Shown piece after piece: positions 15,242 to 26,988 of a stretch of DNA of 40,216 bases (positions within the stretch are counted from its first letter, which is position 1; the number at the start of each line of letters is the position of its first letter). The position numbers and the translations under genes are program-made. The notes beneath the pieces are model-generated. The model searched no databases and had not been told where the DNA came from. It saw only the letters and a program-made list of their open reading frames with translations. The stretch covers positions 1-40,216 of the forward strand of contig JARBTT010000006.1 in assembly GCA_029240055.1 (NCBI GenBank), given 5' to 3'. The stretch comes from Anaerosinus sp. (GTDB taxonomy: Bacteria; Bacillota; Negativicutes; JARBTT01).

Positions 15242-15256
15242 TTGGGGTTGATACAA

Positions 15257-15895
15257 ATGGAACTTAGTGAATATTTAAAAGAACTAAAAAAAATAAAAAT
15301 GTTAAATATAGAAGAAGAAACTAAGCTTTGGCGAGAGTATAAAATAAATCAAGATATTAAAGCCCGACAAGTTTTAATTGAAAGTTATCAACCTCTTGTA
15401 TTTAAAGCTGTTATGCAATTAAAAGTAAACGATAATGTCATGGATATTGTGCAAGAAGGAACGGTTGGTTTGATTGAAGCCGTAGAAAATTATAACCATG
15501 AGCGTAGTGTGGCGTTTAGTCTATATGCACTGCACCGTATTCGTGGGCGGATGCTTAACTTCCTACAAAAGGAAGGAGGTGCTGAGTTGACTTATATTGA
15601 CAGACCAATGTATAATGGGGACAATGTCACGACTTTAGGTGAAAATATTATCGATTTGGCACCAACAGTGTCAAATCAGGTCGAACAAAGCTTTTTAGTG
15701 GATCAATTAAATCATGCAATACAAAGGTTGCCGGAAAAGGAGCAACTAGTTTTGCAAAGTGTGTATATGAAAGATCAAGATGTAAAAGAAGTTGCAGAAA
15801 GTTTAGATCTCAGTACCACGCATATCTATCGCTTGCAGAAACGAGGGATTAAGAGGATTCGTGGAATGTTATCAAATCTGATGAAACATTGGTAG
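15257..15895 (+). CDS. Sigma-70 family RNA polymerase sigma factor
   Basis: The 212-aa product has sigma region 2 (about 20-105, with SYQPLVFKAVMQL, MDIVQEGTVGLIEAVENYNHE and FSLYALHRIRGRML). A shortened region 3 follows (about 106-150), then region 4 (about 155-207, LPEKEQLVLQSVYMKDQDVKEVAESL then STTHIYRLQKRGIKRI). Region 1 is missing, so it is an alternative rather than a housekeeping sigma. The region 2.4 pattern resembles the FliA/SigF group more than ECF factors. ATG 15257 follows GGGG (15244-15247) by 9 bases; TTG 15242 is in frame but overlaps the tamB stop. No anti-sigma gene is obvious, though the next gene encodes a single-pass membrane protein. Its regulon cannot be read from the window. 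Confidence 0.88.
   Translation: MELSEYLKELKKIKMLNIEEETKLWREYKINQDIKARQVLIESYQPLVFKAVMQLKVNDNVMDIVQEGTVGLIEAVENYNHERSVAFSLYALHRIRGRMLNFLQKEGGAELTYIDRPMYNGDNVTTLGENIIDLAPTVSNQVEQSFLVDQLNHAIQRLPEKEQLVLQSVYMKDQDVKEVAESLDLSTTHIYRLQKRGIKRIRGMLSNLMKHW
15571..15589 (+). promoter_or_regulatory. Strong internal Shine-Dalgarno with in-frame TTG
   Basis: GGAAGGAGGT (15571-15580) inside the sigma gene is followed 6 bases later by an in-frame TTG (15587-15589). It could start a product of about 102 aa containing only regions 3 and 4, or simply cause a ribosome pause between domains. Confidence 0.3.
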
Positions 15896-16061
15896 ATGCT
15901 TTTTAAATGATGGAAAACAGTCAAGTTACGGTGAATTTGTAAGGATATTGAATAAAAATAAGTGTTTTTGACGAATTAAAGCTAAAAACAACTAGTTTTA
16001 ATATTAACTTTGTATTGGATTATATATATGTTTGTATGATTGACATTAGGGGTGTGATCTA

Positions 16062-16640
16062 ATGGTGGAGTTAAAGGATCGAATGTCAAAACATGTCAAG
16101 GCGGCAAAAGCATGGCTTGGCAGGGCTGAGCAATCCTTTGATAAAGAGCAAAATATTAGAGGTGAGCTTGATTTGATGTTAGCGCAAGCGGAATTAAAGC
16201 GAGCGCAAGAATCAAGAGTAGAAAATAAGAAACAGTATAATAAATATCGACTAATTCACAGTATTCTTGCAGCTTGCATTGCTGGGCTAGTTGTAGTTGT
16301 TGGTTTTAGTGGATGGGAATTTTTAAATGGGAAACCAGCAATAAATACATTTAGTCATGTTAATAAAGTGGAACAAGTAAATAATGAGATTTTAGATAAA
16401 AATCAAAACATGTCAATAAATGATATGGATAAGCCAATGCAAATGGTGGAAAAAAAAGTAGATGTTCCAATCGCAGCTAGTAAAGTGACTAAAGTAAATC
16501 AAGAAAGTGAAACTAAGTCAAAAATTGAAGAAAAACCAAGTACAGCTTCAACGGTTAAAGAAGATGTAGTAAATTTACCGCCAGCACAAATGCAAAATTT
16601 GATGCGAGCTGCAGGTAAGTCACTACGTGGACAGGAATAG
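16062..16640 (+). CDS. Unknown single-pass membrane protein
   Basis: I do not recognise this 192-aa protein. Residues 1-62 are highly charged and helical (ELDLMLAQAELKRAQESR), probably cytoplasmic. Residues 64-85 form one membrane helix (LIHSILAACIAGLVVVVGF). Residues 90-192 are a polar, low-complexity lysine- and glutamate-rich tail, probably periplasmic, ending LPPAQMQNLMRAAGKSLRG. ATG 16062 follows AGGGGTG (16048-16054) by 7 bases. It is 166 bases downstream of the sigma gene and 22 bases upstream of bamA, so it is likely cotranscribed with bamA. A membrane-bound regulator of the neighbouring sigma factor is possible from position and topology alone; no anti-sigma motif is seen. Confidence 0.75.
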   Translation: MVELKDRMSKHVKAAKAWLGRAEQSFDKEQNIRGELDLMLAQAELKRAQESRVENKKQYNKYRLIHSILAACIAGLVVVVGFSGWEFLNGKPAINTFSHVNKVEQVNNEILDKNQNMSINDMDKPMQMVEKKVDVPIAASKVTKVNQESETKSKIEEKPSTASTVKEDVVNLPPAQMQNLMRAAGKSLRGQE

Positions 16641-16662: not shown

Positions 16663-18477
16663 ATGAATATTAATAAAAATTATAAAGCAATTTTATGTGC
16701 CTTAATGCTTACGACTAGTTTAGTAACAGTTACTACTCCCGTATCTGCGGAAGAGGTAAATGACGTTGAAGCACCAGCTGATGTAGTGGCATCTCCTGAT
16801 GCTGCAAAAACAGCTGAAGCTACAAATCCAGTGAGTGCTTATGTCAGCAAACCAATCATGAATATTAGTGTTGCTGGTAATAAAATTACGAAACAAGATG
16901 ATATTTTAGCGGTAACTAAGACCAAAGCTGGCGATTCCTTAACAGAAGCTGCAATTAAGCAGGATTTACAATCTATTTATGAAATGGGAAACTTTTTTGA
17001 TATTATTGTAAATTTTCAAGAAATTCCAGAAGGTGTAAACGTAGTTTATACTGTAATTGAAAATCCAATTCTCAAAGATATCGTCGTAAAAGGGAATACA
17101 AAAGTTGATACGAACAAAATTTTAGAGATGCTTACCATAAAAAAAGGTGAAATATTAAATACAAAGACATTAAATGCCAATGCACGTAGTATTGAAGCGT
17201 ATTACCATGATAAAGGATTTATCTTTACAAAAGTAAGCGATGTTGCAATGTCAAATGATGGCGTCTTAACGTTGTCTGTTAATGAAGGTGTATTAGAAGG
17301 TTTTCAAGTAAAGGGCAATACGAAAACAAAAGATTATGTTGTTACACGTGAAATGCGCTTAAAACCAGGCGAAGCTTTTAATGTAAAAGCTGCGCGTCGC
17401 AGTATGCAAAGAGTTTACAATTTAGGGTATTTTGAAGACGTTAATATGAAATTAAATCCTGGTCGCGAACCAAATGCTGTTGTTTTAGAAACTGATGTTG
17501 TAGAAAAACGTACAGGATCATTTTCTGTTGGTGCGGGGTATAGTAGTTCTGATGGCTTAATAGGTATTTTTGAAATTGGTGATACTAATTTTAGAGGTAC
17601 GGGAGATGCGATAAAAATTCATTTTGAATTTGGTGGCGATGCCGATACCTATGATAGTTATCAATTTAGCTATACAAAACCATGGTTAGATAGTAAACAA
17701 ACTTCGGCAACTTTTCGTGTATATGATATGACGCATGAATATGATAATAACGATAGAGATGGCCATTTGATAGAAACGTATGATAAAAAATACAAAGGAT
17801 ATGAACTTTCTTTTGGGCGTCCAGTCAGTGAATATTCAACCAACTATATTACGTTTAAAGATCGTAAAGATGAATATATTAAGCATGTTGATGGTACTAC
17901 GAATTATGGTGATGGGACGCATGCGCAATATTTAAAAGACAATTTTGGTGATACGCGTAGTGTAATTCTTGCACATACGACGGATACGAGAGATAACATC
18001 TACAATCCAACCGAAGGTGCAAAAGTTACAGTTAGTGGTGAATTTGCTGGCATTGCTGGTGGCGATTTCGACTATAATAAATATTCTTTTGAAGATCATC
18101 ATTATTTTAAGGTTGGTCGTAATCATGTGATTGCAACTAGGGCAACAGTAGGGTATGCGACTGGCTCAATGCCAGAGGCTGCATTATTTGATGCAGGTGG
18201 ACAAACTACGTTACGTGGTTATAAAGACGATCAGTTCCAAGGTAAAAATTTATTGCTAGGTTCTGTAGAATATCGTTTCCCAATTGTCAACAAAGTACAG
18301 GGAGCATTATTTACTGATTTTGGTAACGCTTGGGATGGTAATTATAGTGTTTCTGGCCTTCATACTAGTATTGGGGTTGGAATTCAAATGGAAACACCGA
18401 TTGGACCAATTCGCCTTGATTATGGTAAAGGTGAAGATGGTGGTAGAACACACTTTAGCTTTGGTGGTAGCTTCTAG
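16663..18477 (+). CDS. bamA: BamA, outer-membrane beta-barrel assembly protein with three POTRA domains
   Basis: BamA inserts beta-barrel proteins into the outer membrane. The 604-aa product has a signal peptide (about 1-29, PVSA|EE), a linker rich in Ala and Pro (30-64), POTRA1 (66-133), POTRA2 (136-207), POTRA3 (211-281) and an Omp85 barrel (285-604). Each of the last two POTRA domains opens with a VKGNTK strand. The barrel holds the loop-6 motif LRGY (517-520), and the protein ends with a barrel-type strand and terminal Phe (SFGGSF). E. coli BamA has five POTRA domains, so the periplasmic arm here is shorter. GGAGG (16651-16655) precedes ATG 16663. No BamB-E genes adjoin it; Skp-like chaperones follow. 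Confidence 0.96.
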   Translation: MNINKNYKAILCALMLTTSLVTVTTPVSAEEVNDVEAPADVVASPDAAKTAEATNPVSAYVSKPIMNISVAGNKITKQDDILAVTKTKAGDSLTEAAIKQDLQSIYEMGNFFDIIVNFQEIPEGVNVVYTVIENPILKDIVVKGNTKVDTNKILEMLTIKKGEILNTKTLNANARSIEAYYHDKGFIFTKVSDVAMSNDGVLTLSVNEGVLEGFQVKGNTKTKDYVVTREMRLKPGEAFNVKAARRSMQRVYNLGYFEDVNMKLNPGREPNAVVLETDVVEKRTGSFSVGAGYSSSDGLIGIFEIGDTNFRGTGDAIKIHFEFGGDADTYDSYQFSYTKPWLDSKQTSATFRVYDMTHEYDNNDRDGHLIETYDKKYKGYELSFGRPVSEYSTNYITFKDRKDEYIKHVDGTTNYGDGTHAQYLKDNFGDTRSVILAHTTDTRDNIYNPTEGAKVTVSGEFAGIAGGDFDYNKYSFEDHHYFKVGRNHVIATRATVGYATGSMPEAALFDAGGQTTLRGYKDDQFQGKNLLLGSVEYRFPIVNKVQGALFTDFGNAWDGNYSVSGLHTSIGVGIQMETPIGPIRLDYGKGEDGGRTHFSFGGSF

Positions 18478-18487
18478 AAATTTTTTA

Positions 18488-18517
18488 AAACCAGGCAGCG
18501 GTTTGCCTGGTTTCTCT
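18488..18517 (+). terminator. Hairpin between bamA and the downstream unknown gene
   Basis: AAACCAGGCA (18488-18497) pairs perfectly with TGCCTGGTTT (18504-18513) over a 6-base loop, followed by CTCTT. The U tail is weak, so readthrough into the next gene, which shows no clear promoter, is plausible. Confidence 0.7.
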
Positions 18518-18554
18518 TATAAACATTTGCAAGTTCGTATTGAGGTGAACGATC

Positions 18555-19838
18555 ATACGTAAATTTAGTTTGATAATAACTTTTTTTCTACTGGTAGTGT
18601 TTTCACCAAGTATTGTAAGTGCTGCTGCAAATGATACAATAGAGAACATACAAGTGAGTGTGCAAACGGATAGCGGACAGATGATACCAGATAAAATAGT
18701 TAAGAGAATGCAGGCGAGTATTTATACGATTGGTGATAATGTTTTAAGTGGTCATCTTGTAGGCGATGTTGAGTTAAAAAAAGATAAGTATGAAAGTTTG
18801 ATCCACGAGGTTTTGGATCGGATTTTAATTGGTTATTCTATAAAATCTGTAATGATTGAACCACAAGCTAGTACCTCTATTGTTGTAGTTATTTCGCCAT
18901 GGCCAGATATTATCAATAAAGTTAATGTTGATGTTGTGGTGAACGAAGTTTCACCAGAGGTAAAAAATCTTATTTTAGCTGATCTGGCTGAAATTGATCA
19001 AGTGTTTAATACCGTTTTAGTCGGTTTGCCGATTGATGCGGTAGATTGGGCAAGGAGTATCATAAAAATATCACTTACAGATTTTTTATCAGTACAATTA
19101 CCAGAATATGATGCAAGCTTTGAAGTTGTTCCTAGCAATGTAACTACGTTGAAATTAAATTTGTATCCCAAAGGAAATATTATTCATGATGTAAATTTAT
19201 CTTTACACTCAGAATCAATTCCTAATATATTATTATTAAATTTTAGACCTTATATTCAAAAACAATCAGAAAAACTTATTGGGTTACCGGTAGAATTCGT
19301 TAAAAGACATCAGGCTTATTTTGTTAATGAACTTACGGACGTTTTGAGCCATGATAAAAATCTTAAAAATTTTGGTGTGACAACGAATATAAAAATGCAG
19401 GTAGCAAACAATACTGATATCATGATTAGTGCAGAAACGAATAAATATCGAATTTCATTGGAAGGATATTTAGATATCGGGCGAAAAGAAGATAATACCT
19501 CGCTAAAAGTTCACGCTGGTAAGATGATTTCAGAACAGGATGAAGTTTTTGTTGAGGCAGATTTTTTACCTCATAAAGTGCAGTGGAATCTATTACCGGG
19601 AATATCACATGATTTAACACCGCAAACAAGAATTGGTTTTAAGTATGATACGAATGAAAAGGCAACGGTTCTATGGGCAAAGCAACAAGTTGCAGAAAAA
19701 TGGTTGCTACGTTTTGAACATACGTCAAGCCGTGAATTTAATGAATTCGCTGTGCGCTATAAGTTGCATGATTTTGTTGGTGTGGAGTATGTCATAGATG
19801 ATAATGATAGCTGGCTAAGAATGGTTGGATATTTTTAA
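18555..19838 (+). CDS. Unknown secreted beta-rich protein next to BamA, probable non-AUG start
   Basis: I do not recognise the family. The frame opens after a TGA at 18546-18548. GAGGTGA (18542-18548) is the only good ribosome site; 7 bases after GAGGTG comes ATA 18555 (ATC 18552 is also possible), reading as a normal signal peptide with basic residues, (M)RKFSLIITFFLLVVF...SIVSA. The first conventional start, TTG 18570, lies 22 bases from that site and would drop both basic residues. The 427-aa product then shows two or three mixed alpha/beta units of about 75 residues reminiscent of POTRA domains (about 25-270). A strand-rich C-terminal part of about 140 residues ends in Phe (WLRMVGYF), like a small outer-membrane barrel. 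Position between bamA and the Skp genes suggests a role in barrel assembly; that is inference. Confidence 0.72.
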   Translation: MRKFSLIITFFLLVVFSPSIVSAAANDTIENIQVSVQTDSGQMIPDKIVKRMQASIYTIGDNVLSGHLVGDVELKKDKYESLIHEVLDRILIGYSIKSVMIEPQASTSIVVVISPWPDIINKVNVDVVVNEVSPEVKNLILADLAEIDQVFNTVLVGLPIDAVDWARSIIKISLTDFLSVQLPEYDASFEVVPSNVTTLKLNLYPKGNIIHDVNLSLHSESIPNILLLNFRPYIQKQSEKLIGLPVEFVKRHQAYFVNELTDVLSHDKNLKNFGVTTNIKMQVANNTDIMISAETNKYRISLEGYLDIGRKEDNTSLKVHAGKMISEQDEVFVEADFLPHKVQWNLLPGISHDLTPQTRIGFKYDTNEKATVLWAKQQVAEKWLLRFEHTSSREFNEFAVRYKLHDFVGVEYVIDDNDSWLRMVGYF

Positions 19839-19956: not shown

Positions 19957-20427
19957 ATGATAAAATTTGAAAAAAAACAAATCAAAGTTATTAGTGTAGC
20001 GATTGTACTTGCATTTGTATTTAGTGTAGTTGCTATTGGGGTATCTCAATCAGGTAAAGGCTTTGCTAGTGCAGCTGGATCTTCTTCTAATGTTGGAGTT
20101 GTAAATCAACAGATGATTGTTTCTCAACACCCAGATATGGCGGCAGCAAAAGAAGCAATGCAAAAAGAAGTAGAACAAGCAAAAGCAGATTTCGAGTCTA
20201 AATCCGCTAATATGAATGACCAAGATAAACAAGCATATTATCAACAATTGCAACAACGTTTAGCAAGCAAAGAAAAAGAGTTGATTTCTCCTATTATGGA
20301 TAAAGTAGAAGCTACGATTAAAAGTGTCGCAGATGCAAAAGGATTATCTGTTGTTCTTGATAAAAGCAATGTAGTTTACGGTGGACAAGATATTACTGAC
20401 GAAGTTGTAAAAAAGCTTTCTAAATAA
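19957..20427 (+). CDS. Skp/OmpH-family periplasmic chaperone, paralog 1
   Basis: OmpH/Skp chaperones hold unfolded outer-membrane proteins in the periplasm. This 156-aa paralog has an N-terminal hydrophobic segment (about 11-30), either a signal peptide with a site near FASA|AG or an anchor. The OmpH fold follows: a first strand VGVVNQQMIVSQHPD, two helical arms (about 62-115, QAKADFESKSANMNDQDKQA onward) and the returning strand GLSVVLDKSNVVYGGQDITDEVVKKL. Length matches E. coli Skp (about 160). AAAAGGAG (19940-19946) precedes ATG 19957. It is the first of three tandem relatives, and a hairpin separates it from the second. Confidence 0.9.
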   Translation: MIKFEKKQIKVISVAIVLAFVFSVVAIGVSQSGKGFASAAGSSSNVGVVNQQMIVSQHPDMAAAKEAMQKEVEQAKADFESKSANMNDQDKQAYYQQLQQRLASKEKELISPIMDKVEATIKSVADAKGLSVVLDKSNVVYGGQDITDEVVKKLSK

Positions 20428-20514: not shown

Positions 20515-21477
20515 ATGGCGAGTCGAAAAATTTTGATTGCTAGTATCCTTGTTTTAGCTGTTATCGCATTTGCTGGATATTTATTCAAGGCTACAGTTGG
20601 TGACTCAAAAAACCCTAAAGGTTCGACAGCTGTAGCTACCCAAACAGATATTGGTATTATCGATATGAATAAGGCATTAAAAGCACATCCGAAATATCAA
20701 GACTTAGTGCGATTAAAAAAAGAATTGAATTCATTGACTGCCCAAAATGAAGCAGCACAAAACTTTACAATTGACAATCAGGCACCATTGGTAAATCAAG
20801 GTTCGCTTGATGATGCAATGCAGCAAAAACAAAATGAAAAATTAATTGCGAAACACGCTGAAATCAGTGAAAGATTAAAAAGGAAAAATAAAGAACTGAC
20901 AGATCAATTTGGAAAAGAATTTGAAGCTGAAGTAGCGACGATTAATACGTATTATCAACCGATCCTTTTCGATTTGAAATTGAAGGCGGAAACGGCTAAT
21001 ATTACTGAGGAAGCAAGAAAAGAACTAAATAACAAACGAATGAATTTAGAGAGTGAGCGCAACCAGAAAATAGCGCAAAAACAGCAAGAATTTAACAATA
21101 AGCTGAATACTATCATGCAAGATGAAACTAAAAAGGGTGAAATAGAGCTTGCTGAAGAGCGTAAGCAGATAGAAGAAGAAGCAAAGACAGAAAGAAATGT
21201 GAAGCAAGAAGAAATAGATACTCGTAATAACCAGGCGATGACCAATCAGAATGAAGCTATTAAATTAGATATCAATCAGGTAACAAAAGGTAAAGAAACT
21301 ATTATTTATAAAGAGCAAGAAATTGCTGTATTAGAAGAAAGTATGAACAATGATATTGCTAGTAAAGTTGCGAAAATAGCAATTGAAAAAAATTTAGCAA
21401 CTGTATTAGCGGTTGTTCAGGTTAATGTCAATGCAATAGACATTACGGATCTTGTTATTGCTGAGTTTAAGAAGTAA
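20515..21477 (+). CDS. Enlarged Skp/OmpH-like protein, membrane anchored, paralog 2
   Basis: The 320-aa product is twice the length of a normal Skp. It starts with a hydrophobic segment (about 6-24, ILIASILVLAVIAFAGYLF) with no clear cleavage site, so it is probably inner-membrane anchored. It keeps the OmpH-type strand TDIGIIDMNKALKAHPKYQDL (about 43-63) and the closing strand NLATVLAVVQVNVNAIDITDLVIAEF at the C terminus. Between them lie about 220 residues of charged, Gln- and Glu-rich coiled coil (KGEIELAEERKQIEEEAK and similar). The arms of the jellyfish-shaped chaperone would thus be much longer. AAAGGGTGG (20502-20510) precedes ATG 20515. Function is inferred from its fold and neighbours. 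Confidence 0.8.
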   Translation: MASRKILIASILVLAVIAFAGYLFKATVGDSKNPKGSTAVATQTDIGIIDMNKALKAHPKYQDLVRLKKELNSLTAQNEAAQNFTIDNQAPLVNQGSLDDAMQQKQNEKLIAKHAEISERLKRKNKELTDQFGKEFEAEVATINTYYQPILFDLKLKAETANITEEARKELNNKRMNLESERNQKIAQKQQEFNNKLNTIMQDETKKGEIELAEERKQIEEEAKTERNVKQEEIDTRNNQAMTNQNEAIKLDINQVTKGKETIIYKEQEIAVLEESMNNDIASKVAKIAIEKNLATVLAVVQVNVNAIDITDLVIAEFKK

Positions 21478-24600: not shown

Positions 24601-24669
24601 TGCAAAACATAAAGTCAAACGTTATGGAGCAAAATAATGTGAGGTATTCTATGATTGCGGGGTAGAAAA

Positions 24670-26988
24670 ATGAAATTTTTTAAACGCGATATTATATTAC
24701 TTTTACTTGTTAGTATTTTATTGGGGGCGGCTTTTGCCAAAGCAGTTTCGTATGGAGCAAATTTTTACTTTAAAGAAAAATTAGTAAGTTTAGTTGGTGA
24801 TTATGGAGAATACGATCTGATTGTACAAATACGCGAAGACAACAAAGCAGATGGGCAGATGCAATTAGAAAAGATTATCAACGAAAGTTTAGCGGGGGCA
24901 AAGTATAAAGAAGGGCCAGTCATTACGCAAAAAGCTAATTTCTTTGTGGCGTTACCAAGTGAATACAAAAATAAAGCGGTGTATGAAAATTTAGAACGAA
25001 TTTTTTCGAGTATTCCTGGCGGTGTAGGTATTAGCATTGTGACAGAACCAAAGCTAAATATTCGCGGAGTACCATCAGGTGCTGTAGAGATGATTATAGA
25101 CCAATTGCAAGCAATTCCCGGCGTTGACTTTGTGTATCGGAGTGGCTCGAGCATTGGTGTAGTGTTAGCTGGAGCAGAAAAAATTGCTACTATAACAGCA
25201 CAAGTGGAGGCAATTCTTAGTGCGAATAAAATGGTAGAAGTAAGTTTTCCTGCTGGTTTGGAGCCGGAGAATCCGGTGCTGTTGGCAGAAAATATCGTAA
25301 CTGCTTTATATAAAAATTTACAGCCTAAGATTGCAAAATATGTATCAGTAGATAGTAGCAATGATGATATTGCTCATCTGACAAGTACCATGCAAGAGTT
25401 GCGCAAATTTCTAAAAGCATATCAAACAAAAGTTTTTGTAACACCAGGAAAGAATGTGCAATTAGCAAAAGGAAATACTGTAGTATTGCAGGGAGAAGGA
25501 GAGAAAAAAGTAGAAGTTGGTGATGTCCTGCAAAGAAATAATATTGCTGTGTCATTAACCGAAGCAAATGCGAATGGTTCCTATACTGGAGTGATTACGC
25601 AAGGAGACGGAAGCAACTTAAAAAGTAATCTTGTGTATTTGCTTGATAAAGATAAGGTGACAGCTTATGCTGGAACAGCGACGTGGCAAAGTCCTCGAGA
25701 TGAGCTTCTTTATGCGTTATCGCAAACGGAAAAAATAACGAAAGAATTGCCTAGTTTTGCTAAGGAAAGCAATACGGTAAGCAAATTAGCTTTAGATACC
25801 TTGCAAAGTTATAATGAGAATGAAACAAATGTGCAGAGAACCTTAAGCAATATGGATGATGCGGTCATCTCAATTAATAGTGCCACTGAAAAATTGGAAG
25901 CCGTTGATGTACAAGCAATTCAAGATCGCATTGATAGCTCATCAAAGACAATGACAAAGTTGCTAGGAACGCTGCGATTAGTACGTTTGATTAATCCCGA
26001 TGTATCACTAGCCATGGGAACGTTAAAAGAAACACAAGAGAAAATGAATGCCTTCGGAGAATTGCTTAATGGGCTTAATAGTGTCAATGAACAAGCTATT
26101 GCGACAAAAAATATTTTAGCAACAATGGCTGATAATGGAAATAGATTAAATAGCTCATTGCAAGCATTCAATCAAGGAAAAACAAAAGGAAATTTAATTG
26201 ATGCAAATAAAAGATTGACTCAATTGGCAAACACTGATTTTACAAATGTTAGTGAAGCACTCCAAACGTTACAAGTATCCGCCCCCAAATTGAATGATGA
26301 AGAAATGAATAGTTCCATCACCTTAATGGATAAGATGATCAATGGTCAAGTCATACCAAATAAGAGATTGCAGATTATGATAGATCATTCTATCTGGCTA
26401 GAAAATATTAAGCCAATTATTTATGGGGCTGTTGGGCATCAAAACATTGGCATTTTTGATTCAAATATTGGCGTCATCGAACCGAATGTATACTTACAAG
26501 CTTATCAGGTGTTAAACGAAGTACAAGCAGTACTTGCTGGGCTTACCGCATTTGTGGTTACATTGGCTTTATTGGCGTTTGACCATACTGCAGTTATGTC
26601 AGCTTTGCGTAATCAAAGATTAAGTAACCGTGTGCAAAAACAGCAAAAAGGTATGATCCAAGTTAGTAAACAGTTAATAAAAAGTATAGCTTATCGTGAA
26701 AATGTCTATGGAATGGTGGTAGGGGCTATTTTGCTTAGTTTTATATTTTATTTTTCCGGAGCGGGAATCCCTTACGTTAGTTGGTATCTAGTTCCTATTA
26801 TTGGGATGCTTTTTGGCTTATTGATCGCTTTGATTACGGAAAAAATTACACCGGTTTCGGTAGAAGAAATATTTGCTGGAAAATCACTAGGAATGTCTTT
26901 TACTGAAATCATGCGTGAAATTGTCATTCCAAATGGAAGACCAGGGATACTAGAACGCTTAAATCGGCAGAAGCTAAAATTCAAATAA
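24670..26988 (+). CDS. Large ABC-permease-like protein with giant extracytoplasmic domain
   Basis: I do not recognise the family. The 772-aa product has one N-terminal membrane helix (7-26) and about 590 extracytoplasmic residues. Three C-terminal helices follow (about 621-642, 680-700, 705-723), with a basic loop between the first two and a basic C-terminal tail. This is the topology of MacB, FtsX and LolC/E type permeases. The outer part begins with mixed alpha/beta repeats (about 45-250), then a small beta domain around VFVTPGKNVQLAKGNTVVL. A long helical region (about 350-600) follows, with heptad spacing like that of MCE proteins. An ABC ATPase gene follows 20 bases downstream and is the evident partner. 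ATG 24670 follows CGGGGT by 6 bases; TTG 24655 is an alternative. A role moving lipid, lipoprotein or polymer through the envelope is inferred. Confidence 0.75.
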   Translation: MKFFKRDIILLLLVSILLGAAFAKAVSYGANFYFKEKLVSLVGDYGEYDLIVQIREDNKADGQMQLEKIINESLAGAKYKEGPVITQKANFFVALPSEYKNKAVYENLERIFSSIPGGVGISIVTEPKLNIRGVPSGAVEMIIDQLQAIPGVDFVYRSGSSIGVVLAGAEKIATITAQVEAILSANKMVEVSFPAGLEPENPVLLAENIVTALYKNLQPKIAKYVSVDSSNDDIAHLTSTMQELRKFLKAYQTKVFVTPGKNVQLAKGNTVVLQGEGEKKVEVGDVLQRNNIAVSLTEANANGSYTGVITQGDGSNLKSNLVYLLDKDKVTAYAGTATWQSPRDELLYALSQTEKITKELPSFAKESNTVSKLALDTLQSYNENETNVQRTLSNMDDAVISINSATEKLEAVDVQAIQDRIDSSSKTMTKLLGTLRLVRLINPDVSLAMGTLKETQEKMNAFGELLNGLNSVNEQAIATKNILATMADNGNRLNSSLQAFNQGKTKGNLIDANKRLTQLANTDFTNVSEALQTLQVSAPKLNDEEMNSSITLMDKMINGQVIPNKRLQIMIDHSIWLENIKPIIYGAVGHQNIGIFDSNIGVIEPNVYLQAYQVLNEVQAVLAGLTAFVVTLALLAFDHTAVMSALRNQRLSNRVQKQQKGMIQVSKQLIKSIAYRENVYGMVVGAILLSFIFYFSGAGIPYVSWYLVPIIGMLFGLLIALITEKITPVSVEEIFAGKSLGMSFTEIMREIVIPNGRPGILERLNRQKLKFK

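Follow-up and report, generated by a model that had tools for sequence, protein, structure and literature searches.

A predicted POTRA and mini-barrel protein encoded between bamA and skp in Negativicutes: probable non-canonical start and possible link to a sigma factor

Gene X and its neighborhood

What is encoded by the 427-codon open reading frame between bamA and the skp genes of Anaerosinus sp. (Negativicutes), and what could its product do there? For diderm Firmicutes, Antunes et al. 2016 (PMC5007114) report no BamB-E, and they name as candidates three other proteins of the cluster, X not among them. An earlier sequence-only reading of the frame, here called gene X, had taken its product for a secreted orphan protein that mimics a miniature Omp85 and may stand in place of BamB-E.

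The window, that is, the whole stretch of 40,216 nucleotides that was analyzed, carries an outer-membrane biogenesis cluster of mlaD, tolC, tamB, sig, the gene of a one-span membrane protein (the TM protein), bamA and X. These are followed by three skp-like genes, lpxD, the genes of a YjbH-type protein and an LpxL/M-type acyltransferase, lpxC, fabZ and lpxA; names in the cluster that do not come from a family search were assigned by reading the sequence. Coordinates are collected in Table 1. The frame of X is open and begins with a signal peptide, (M)RKFSLIITFFLLVVFSPSIVSA; the start taken in the sequence-only reading turns out to be an AUA codon, and no canonical start fits. The C-terminal residue is Phe. 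The orphan status of the protein was confirmed, since Pfam, NCBIfam and PDB sequence searches with X and 27 family members gave no match. In the family alignment, the TM protein has a cytosolic N-domain and a transmembrane segment, after which come a periplasmic linker rich in Pro and, at the C-terminus, a conserved peptide, MQxLxRxAGKSLRG.

Table 1. Features of the X locus in the window (positions are those of the whole stretch)
Feature	Position	Strand	Basis or remark
sig, sigma-70-type factor gene	15242..15895	+	Pfam Sigma70_r2 and Sigma70_r4 (regions 2 and 4 both matched)
One-span membrane protein (TM protein) gene	16062..16640	+	Alignment of family
bamA	16663..18477	+	Pfam Omp85 and POTRA (three); NCBIfam TIGR03303, 309.5 bits
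Hairpin in bamA-X gap	18488..18513	+	Stem and covariation analysis
Shine-Dalgarno sequence of X, GAGGTG	18542..18547	+	Sequence; duplex with 16S tail, -11.5 kcal/mol
Gene X, whole CDS, 427 codons	18555..19838	+	Open frame from ATA 18555 to TAA 19836-19838
Probable non-canonical start codon of X, ATA	18555..18557	+	ATC at 18552 is the alternative
Signal peptide of X	18555..18623	+	Sequence; corresponding N-termini in relatives
POTRA-like domain 1 of X, mature residues 8-92	18645..18899	+	AlphaFold2 strand and helix order; Foldseek
POTRA-like domain 2 of X, mature residues 99-182	18918..19169	+	AlphaFold2; Foldseek
POTRA-like domain 3 of X, mature residues 189-272	19188..19439	+	AlphaFold2; Foldseek
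Predicted 10-strand transmembrane barrel of X, mature residues 275-403	19446..19832	+	Whole and barrel-only models
skp1 (OmpH), conserved downstream neighbor of X	19957..20427	+	Family match and synteny

Two other proteins of the cluster were noted in passing. Between two skp genes, positions 20515-21477 encode a coiled-coil-like protein of 320 amino acids, about twice the length of Skp, with a conserved position and no Pfam match. Further downstream, an envelope-like protein of 777 amino acids (24655-26988), for which no family scored above the cut-off, adjoins an ABC ATPase gene, and the two are kept together in many clusters.

Distribution and co-inheritance of X

In whole-genome searches, X was found in 277 of the 381 genomes of its class, covering 92 of 102 genera, and in 13 sampled genomes from other classes of the phylum; one other class has X in 9 of 29 genomes. 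A single-sequence search of genome contigs with X gave no relative, and the relatives were recovered by an alignment-based search. X lies between bamA and skp1 in all of the first 20 loci, and 19 of these have tamB, sig and the TM-protein gene upstream of bamA; the remaining locus is on a short contig. Outside the class, 11 of 13 loci show the order tamB - sig - TM protein - bamA - X - skp, and the other two contigs begin at X. This order is likewise seen in 58 of 59 named loci and in 18 of 20 further ones, of which the remaining two are incomplete upstream. Across the sampled loci, X nearly always occupies the bamA-skp interval, and its conservation in the class is far from chance. The sequence-only reading had named absence from other Negativicutes clusters as an outcome that would refute its proposal, and this outcome did not arise.

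X is cleanly missing in at least 8 lineages that keep bamA and mostly also tamB and skp. In these X-negative loci skp1 usually follows bamA directly, a short distance downstream, and wherever tamB is visible it abuts bamA (17 of 17), so that sig and the TM-protein gene are gone from there as well. In 30 X-positive loci, sig is found between tamB and bamA; it is absent from that spot in the 17 X-negative loci with tamB visible. A profile search (E<=1e-16) detected the TM protein in 24 of 25 X-positive genomes, the one exception being a contig that ends there, versus 0 of 23 X-negative genomes. On the BamA tree, well-supported branches force at least 8 gains or losses of X. In 8 of 8 independent pairs, X and the sig/TM-protein pair were gained or lost together (sign test p=0.008). 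The scoring of the TM protein in this test followed its presence or absence alongside X at the locus; L150, an X-negative row, lay outside the genome-wide search.

The published map of Veillonella parvula, in which bamA (Vpar_0527) is followed directly by the skp genes 0528-0530 (PMC5491611), is in line with absence of X there. One genus, coded g52, was considered as a holder of a diverged X; this was rejected, since an HMM scan of six of its loci found none. In four g52 loci (L136, L138, L139 and L141) unrelated genes rather than skp follow bamA, and the cluster is broken up. As a separate observation, sig and the TM-protein gene (15242-16640), kept between tamB and bamA across classes, are a candidate sigma/anti-sigma-like pair for envelope control.

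Predicted fold and relation to Omp85

The AlphaFold2 model of X, built from 74 aligned sequences (mean pLDDT 91.8, pTM 0.76), consists of three POTRA-like units, each in the order beta-alpha-alpha-beta-beta, followed by ten strands that reach the C-terminus. This is the layout that had been read from the sequence, namely repeated alpha/beta units and then about 140 strand-rich residues with a terminal Phe; a fold lacking POTRA or barrel features, named beforehand as the adverse outcome, did not appear. The final strand has the pattern WLRxxG(x)F/L. Among PDB structures, the best Foldseek matches of the whole model were BamA (E=7e-12), TamA and Toc75, with POTRA-only structures next (e.g. 3mc8, E=6e-6). 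Whole-chain TM-scores were low (0.16-0.24), as expected because the chain is flexible and multi-domain, and a Pfam search gave no POTRA sequence match in X.

The barrel modeled alone again has 10 strands (pLDDT 95.1). In Foldseek this model matched designed 10-strand transmembrane barrels (TMB10; TM up to 0.6) as well as OmpA and KdgM, and Omp85 proteins did not rank near the top. In contrast to X, these small barrels of 8-12 strands come without three POTRA domains and have no tie to bamA. Hydrophobicity alternates between inward and outward positions along the barrel strands (permutation p=0.0002), a result that supports amphipathic strands and not membrane insertion alone, since the POTRA strands alternate too. 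Judging from the models, X would be an outer-membrane protein.

As in the Omp85 proteins BamA, TamA and Toc75, periplasmic POTRA domains at the N-terminus precede an outer-membrane barrel at the C-terminus in the predicted structure. The differences are several. The definition of the Omp85 superfamily includes a 16-strand barrel (PMC11116518), whereas both the whole and the barrel-only model of X have 10 strands. The RG(F/Y) barrel-loop motif is absent from X, which has no RG dipeptide at all, while BamA of the window carries LRGY. Pfam and NCBIfam gave no Omp85 match in X, and a profile-profile comparison of X with BamA indicated no homology (probability 0.2%); for this reason we do not claim that X descends from BamA. 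Thus, of the miniature-Omp85 proposal, the architecture of POTRA repeats and barrel is upheld by the models, yet X is not a standard Omp85 protein: its barrel size, the missing motif and the lack of sequence homology set it outside the superfamily. The combination of POTRA units with a 10-strand barrel was met in no described family.

Start codon and the hairpin before it

In the window, an in-frame stop lies just upstream of the start of X, and the first canonical codon, TTG at 18570, has no Shine-Dalgarno sequence (duplex energy +0.5 kcal/mol, against -11.5 kcal/mol for the GAGGTG ahead of ATA). A start at this TTG would cost the signal peptide its charged N-region. X of the window therefore probably starts at ATA 18555, or at ATC 18552, which is equally placed.

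The pattern extends well beyond the window. A strong Shine-Dalgarno sequence ahead of AUU, AUA or AUC (AUH), with no canonical start so equipped, was detected at 33 of 114 X loci; applied to 514 control genes, this test flagged 3 (bamA 0/58, skp1 0/103, lpxD 1/93, sig 1/97, TM protein 1/96, lpxM 0/67). Mapped on the tree under a slightly different rule from this locus count, 33 rows with AUH starts (19 ATT, 8 ATA, 6 ATC) require 9 changes, versus 28.8 when shuffled. The arrangement is seen in about 10 families, and convincing cases belong to the lineage of the window and to Sporomusa/Pelosinus-like families. In Selenomonadaceae and in other classes X starts with ATG, GTG or TTG; a small number of Selenomonadaceae loci gave only weak flags. 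The AUH start is not strictly maintained, as three close relatives of AUH loci (L020, L021 and L028) have canonical starts of X.

Could translation of X instead begin at a downstream TTG or GTG, or at a missed start, the AUH pattern being incidental? The rarity of AUH starts and the presence of TTG 18570 speak for this explanation. We consider it unlikely, however: besides the weakness of that TTG described above, 10 X loci contain no canonical codon whatsoever in the tested stretch, the position of the AUH codon is conserved behind GGAGGTG across families, and in these species an AUH start restores a normal charged N-region of the signal peptide. In the genome of the window, infC is laid out alike: it appears to start from ATT (AGGAGG-N9-ATT), no canonical start being available (locus L185, G000:C32). 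Both infC of E. coli (ATT) and sigR of Streptomyces (GTC) are repressed by IF3 (PMC5472188), and X may be under a similar control by IF3. X would represent a conserved case of non-canonical initiation outside infC, and one that annotation pipelines are likely to mis-start.

The gap between bamA and X folds below -12 kcal/mol in 97% of AUH loci versus 20% of canonical-start loci, a comparison in which the AUH gaps are also longer. The hairpin family has the consensus GAGYCAGG-loop-CCTGRCTC. Of its cells 97.8% are paired, and 6 of 10 pairs show changes on both sides, which exceeds every shuffle. Ten genomes have the 8+8 motif, 8 of them once and 2 of them twice; in the window and its sister genome a diverged version is present. 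Stem and start codon are separable, because some canonical-start relatives (L015, L020, L021 and L028) also carry the stem. An Rfam search with the hairpin gave no family, only sub-threshold microRNA matches. An intrinsic terminator was rejected as the whole explanation, since the terminator scan did not list the hairpin and most copies lack a T-run. A shorter core, CAGGY..RCCTGRC, recurs often in these genomes, several of which show it enriched over control, so a terminator or attenuator role is possible; the hairpin may act as an attenuator or as a processing or stability element. Elsewhere in the window, at 2709-2726, a second palindrome has a CCAGGC..GCCTGG core and CTTTTAT behind it, and so resembles an ordinary terminator.

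Possible functions of X

The reading favored here, to which we give somewhat less than an even chance, is that X, sig and the TM protein form a sensing module of sigma factor, membrane protein and outer-membrane sensor. The co-inheritance of the three genes suggests that their products may form one pathway. X would sit in the outer membrane, with its three periplasmic POTRA-like domains on a narrow 10-strand barrel that is probably an anchor rather than a pore, because the interior is filled with invariant charged residues (inward-facing invariant residues include E307, R363, E365, E388 and R399 in mature numbering). It would act beside BamA and not as a second insertase. The POTRA domains would sense how BamA-dependent assembly is proceeding and relay this to the C-terminal peptide of the TM protein in the periplasm, and the TM protein would in turn hold or release the intracellular sigma factor. 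In Sporomusa/Pelosinus-type lineages, translation from AUU, AUA or AUC behind a strong Shine-Dalgarno sequence and the hairpin would, by analogy with infC and sigR, keep X scarce relative to BamA and sensitive to IF3.

Of this scheme, sequence conservation, synteny, co-inheritance and hairpin covariation are observed, and the fold and the barrel of X are predicted; its place in the outer membrane, its contacts with BamA and the TM protein, control of the sigma factor and sensitivity to IF3 are inferred. Pfam and NCBIfam searches of the TM protein gave no match to an anti-sigma domain, and with no known anti-sigma match it could conceivably be a new anti-sigma type. Transfer can also exchange the genes of one operon en bloc, and co-inheritance would then arise even if no pathway were shared. 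The proposal in its full extent is rather unlikely to hold in every part: an undescribed transenvelope pathway of diderm Firmicutes, in which a POTRA mini-barrel in the outer membrane would sense BamA-dependent assembly, with a one-span protein relaying the signal to a dedicated sigma factor and the dose of the sensor being set in many lineages by an IF3-gated AUU, AUA or AUC start and a conserved mRNA hairpin.

Inheritance of X with sig and the TM protein favors either the sensing module or a conditional accessory of the BAM machinery. As such an accessory, a possible but doubtful role, X would bind BamA through its POTRA domains and help to insert a subset of outer-membrane proteins, and the sigma link would be regulatory only, with the sigma factor driving the substrates or X itself. 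The near-constant place of X beside bamA and skp, the function of POTRA domains as the usual docking units of BamA, and the top Foldseek matches to BamA, TamA and Toc75 agree with this role; it is weakened by the absence of X from many lineages positive for bamA and skp and by an inheritance that follows the sigma/TM pair. The narrower claim that X replaces BamB-E finds no support in that form. X is, like those lipoproteins, a possible partner of BamA, but it has its own barrel and POTRA domains, and no cysteine occurs in its whole sequence, for a lipobox or otherwise, so that it cannot be a lipoprotein like BamB-E. It is also missing from many lineages with an otherwise ordinary bamA locus, and its inheritance follows the sigma/TM pair and not bamA.

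X might be an ordinary small outer-membrane protein with an unrelated role, such as adhesion or a structural link, whose periplasmic part merely resembles POTRA domains. The likeness of the barrel alone to TMB10 and OmpA rather than to Omp85, and the lack of sequence homology with BamA, point that way, but the strict position in an assembly operon across classes and the whole-chain matches led by Omp85 proteins make this improbable. That X is a TamA-like partner of TamB, as its three POTRA domains, the tamB gene in the same operon and the TamA structures with the highest query-normalized TM among the top Foldseek matches (0.22-0.24) might suggest, is very improbable, because tamB persists beside bamA in 17 X-negative loci and the barrel of X has 10 strands, not 16.

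Under the sensing-module reading or the accessory role, X would point to an uncharacterized mechanism by which Firmicutes of Gram-negative type assist or sense the assembly of their outer membrane. X adds a conserved candidate component to the question how, in diderm Firmicutes, this membrane is built and monitored in the absence of BamB-E, a question that bears on the debate whether the Firmicute ancestor had an outer membrane. The putative partners of X are directly testable.

Comparison with known systems

In its probable start, X resembles infC (AUU) and Streptomyces sigR (GTC), all three having a non-canonical codon behind a strong Shine-Dalgarno sequence; X differs in being an envelope gene, and its codon is AUU, AUA or AUC according to lineage. 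In gene content, the locus resembles transenvelope sigma pathways of the RpoE-RseA and FecI-FecR-FecA type, in which a sigma factor, a one-span membrane protein and an outer-membrane barrel protein are encoded together, as they appear to be here. Unlike those systems, the X system has no recognizable anti-sigma domain, and in it a predicted POTRA mini-barrel takes the place of the TonB receptor.
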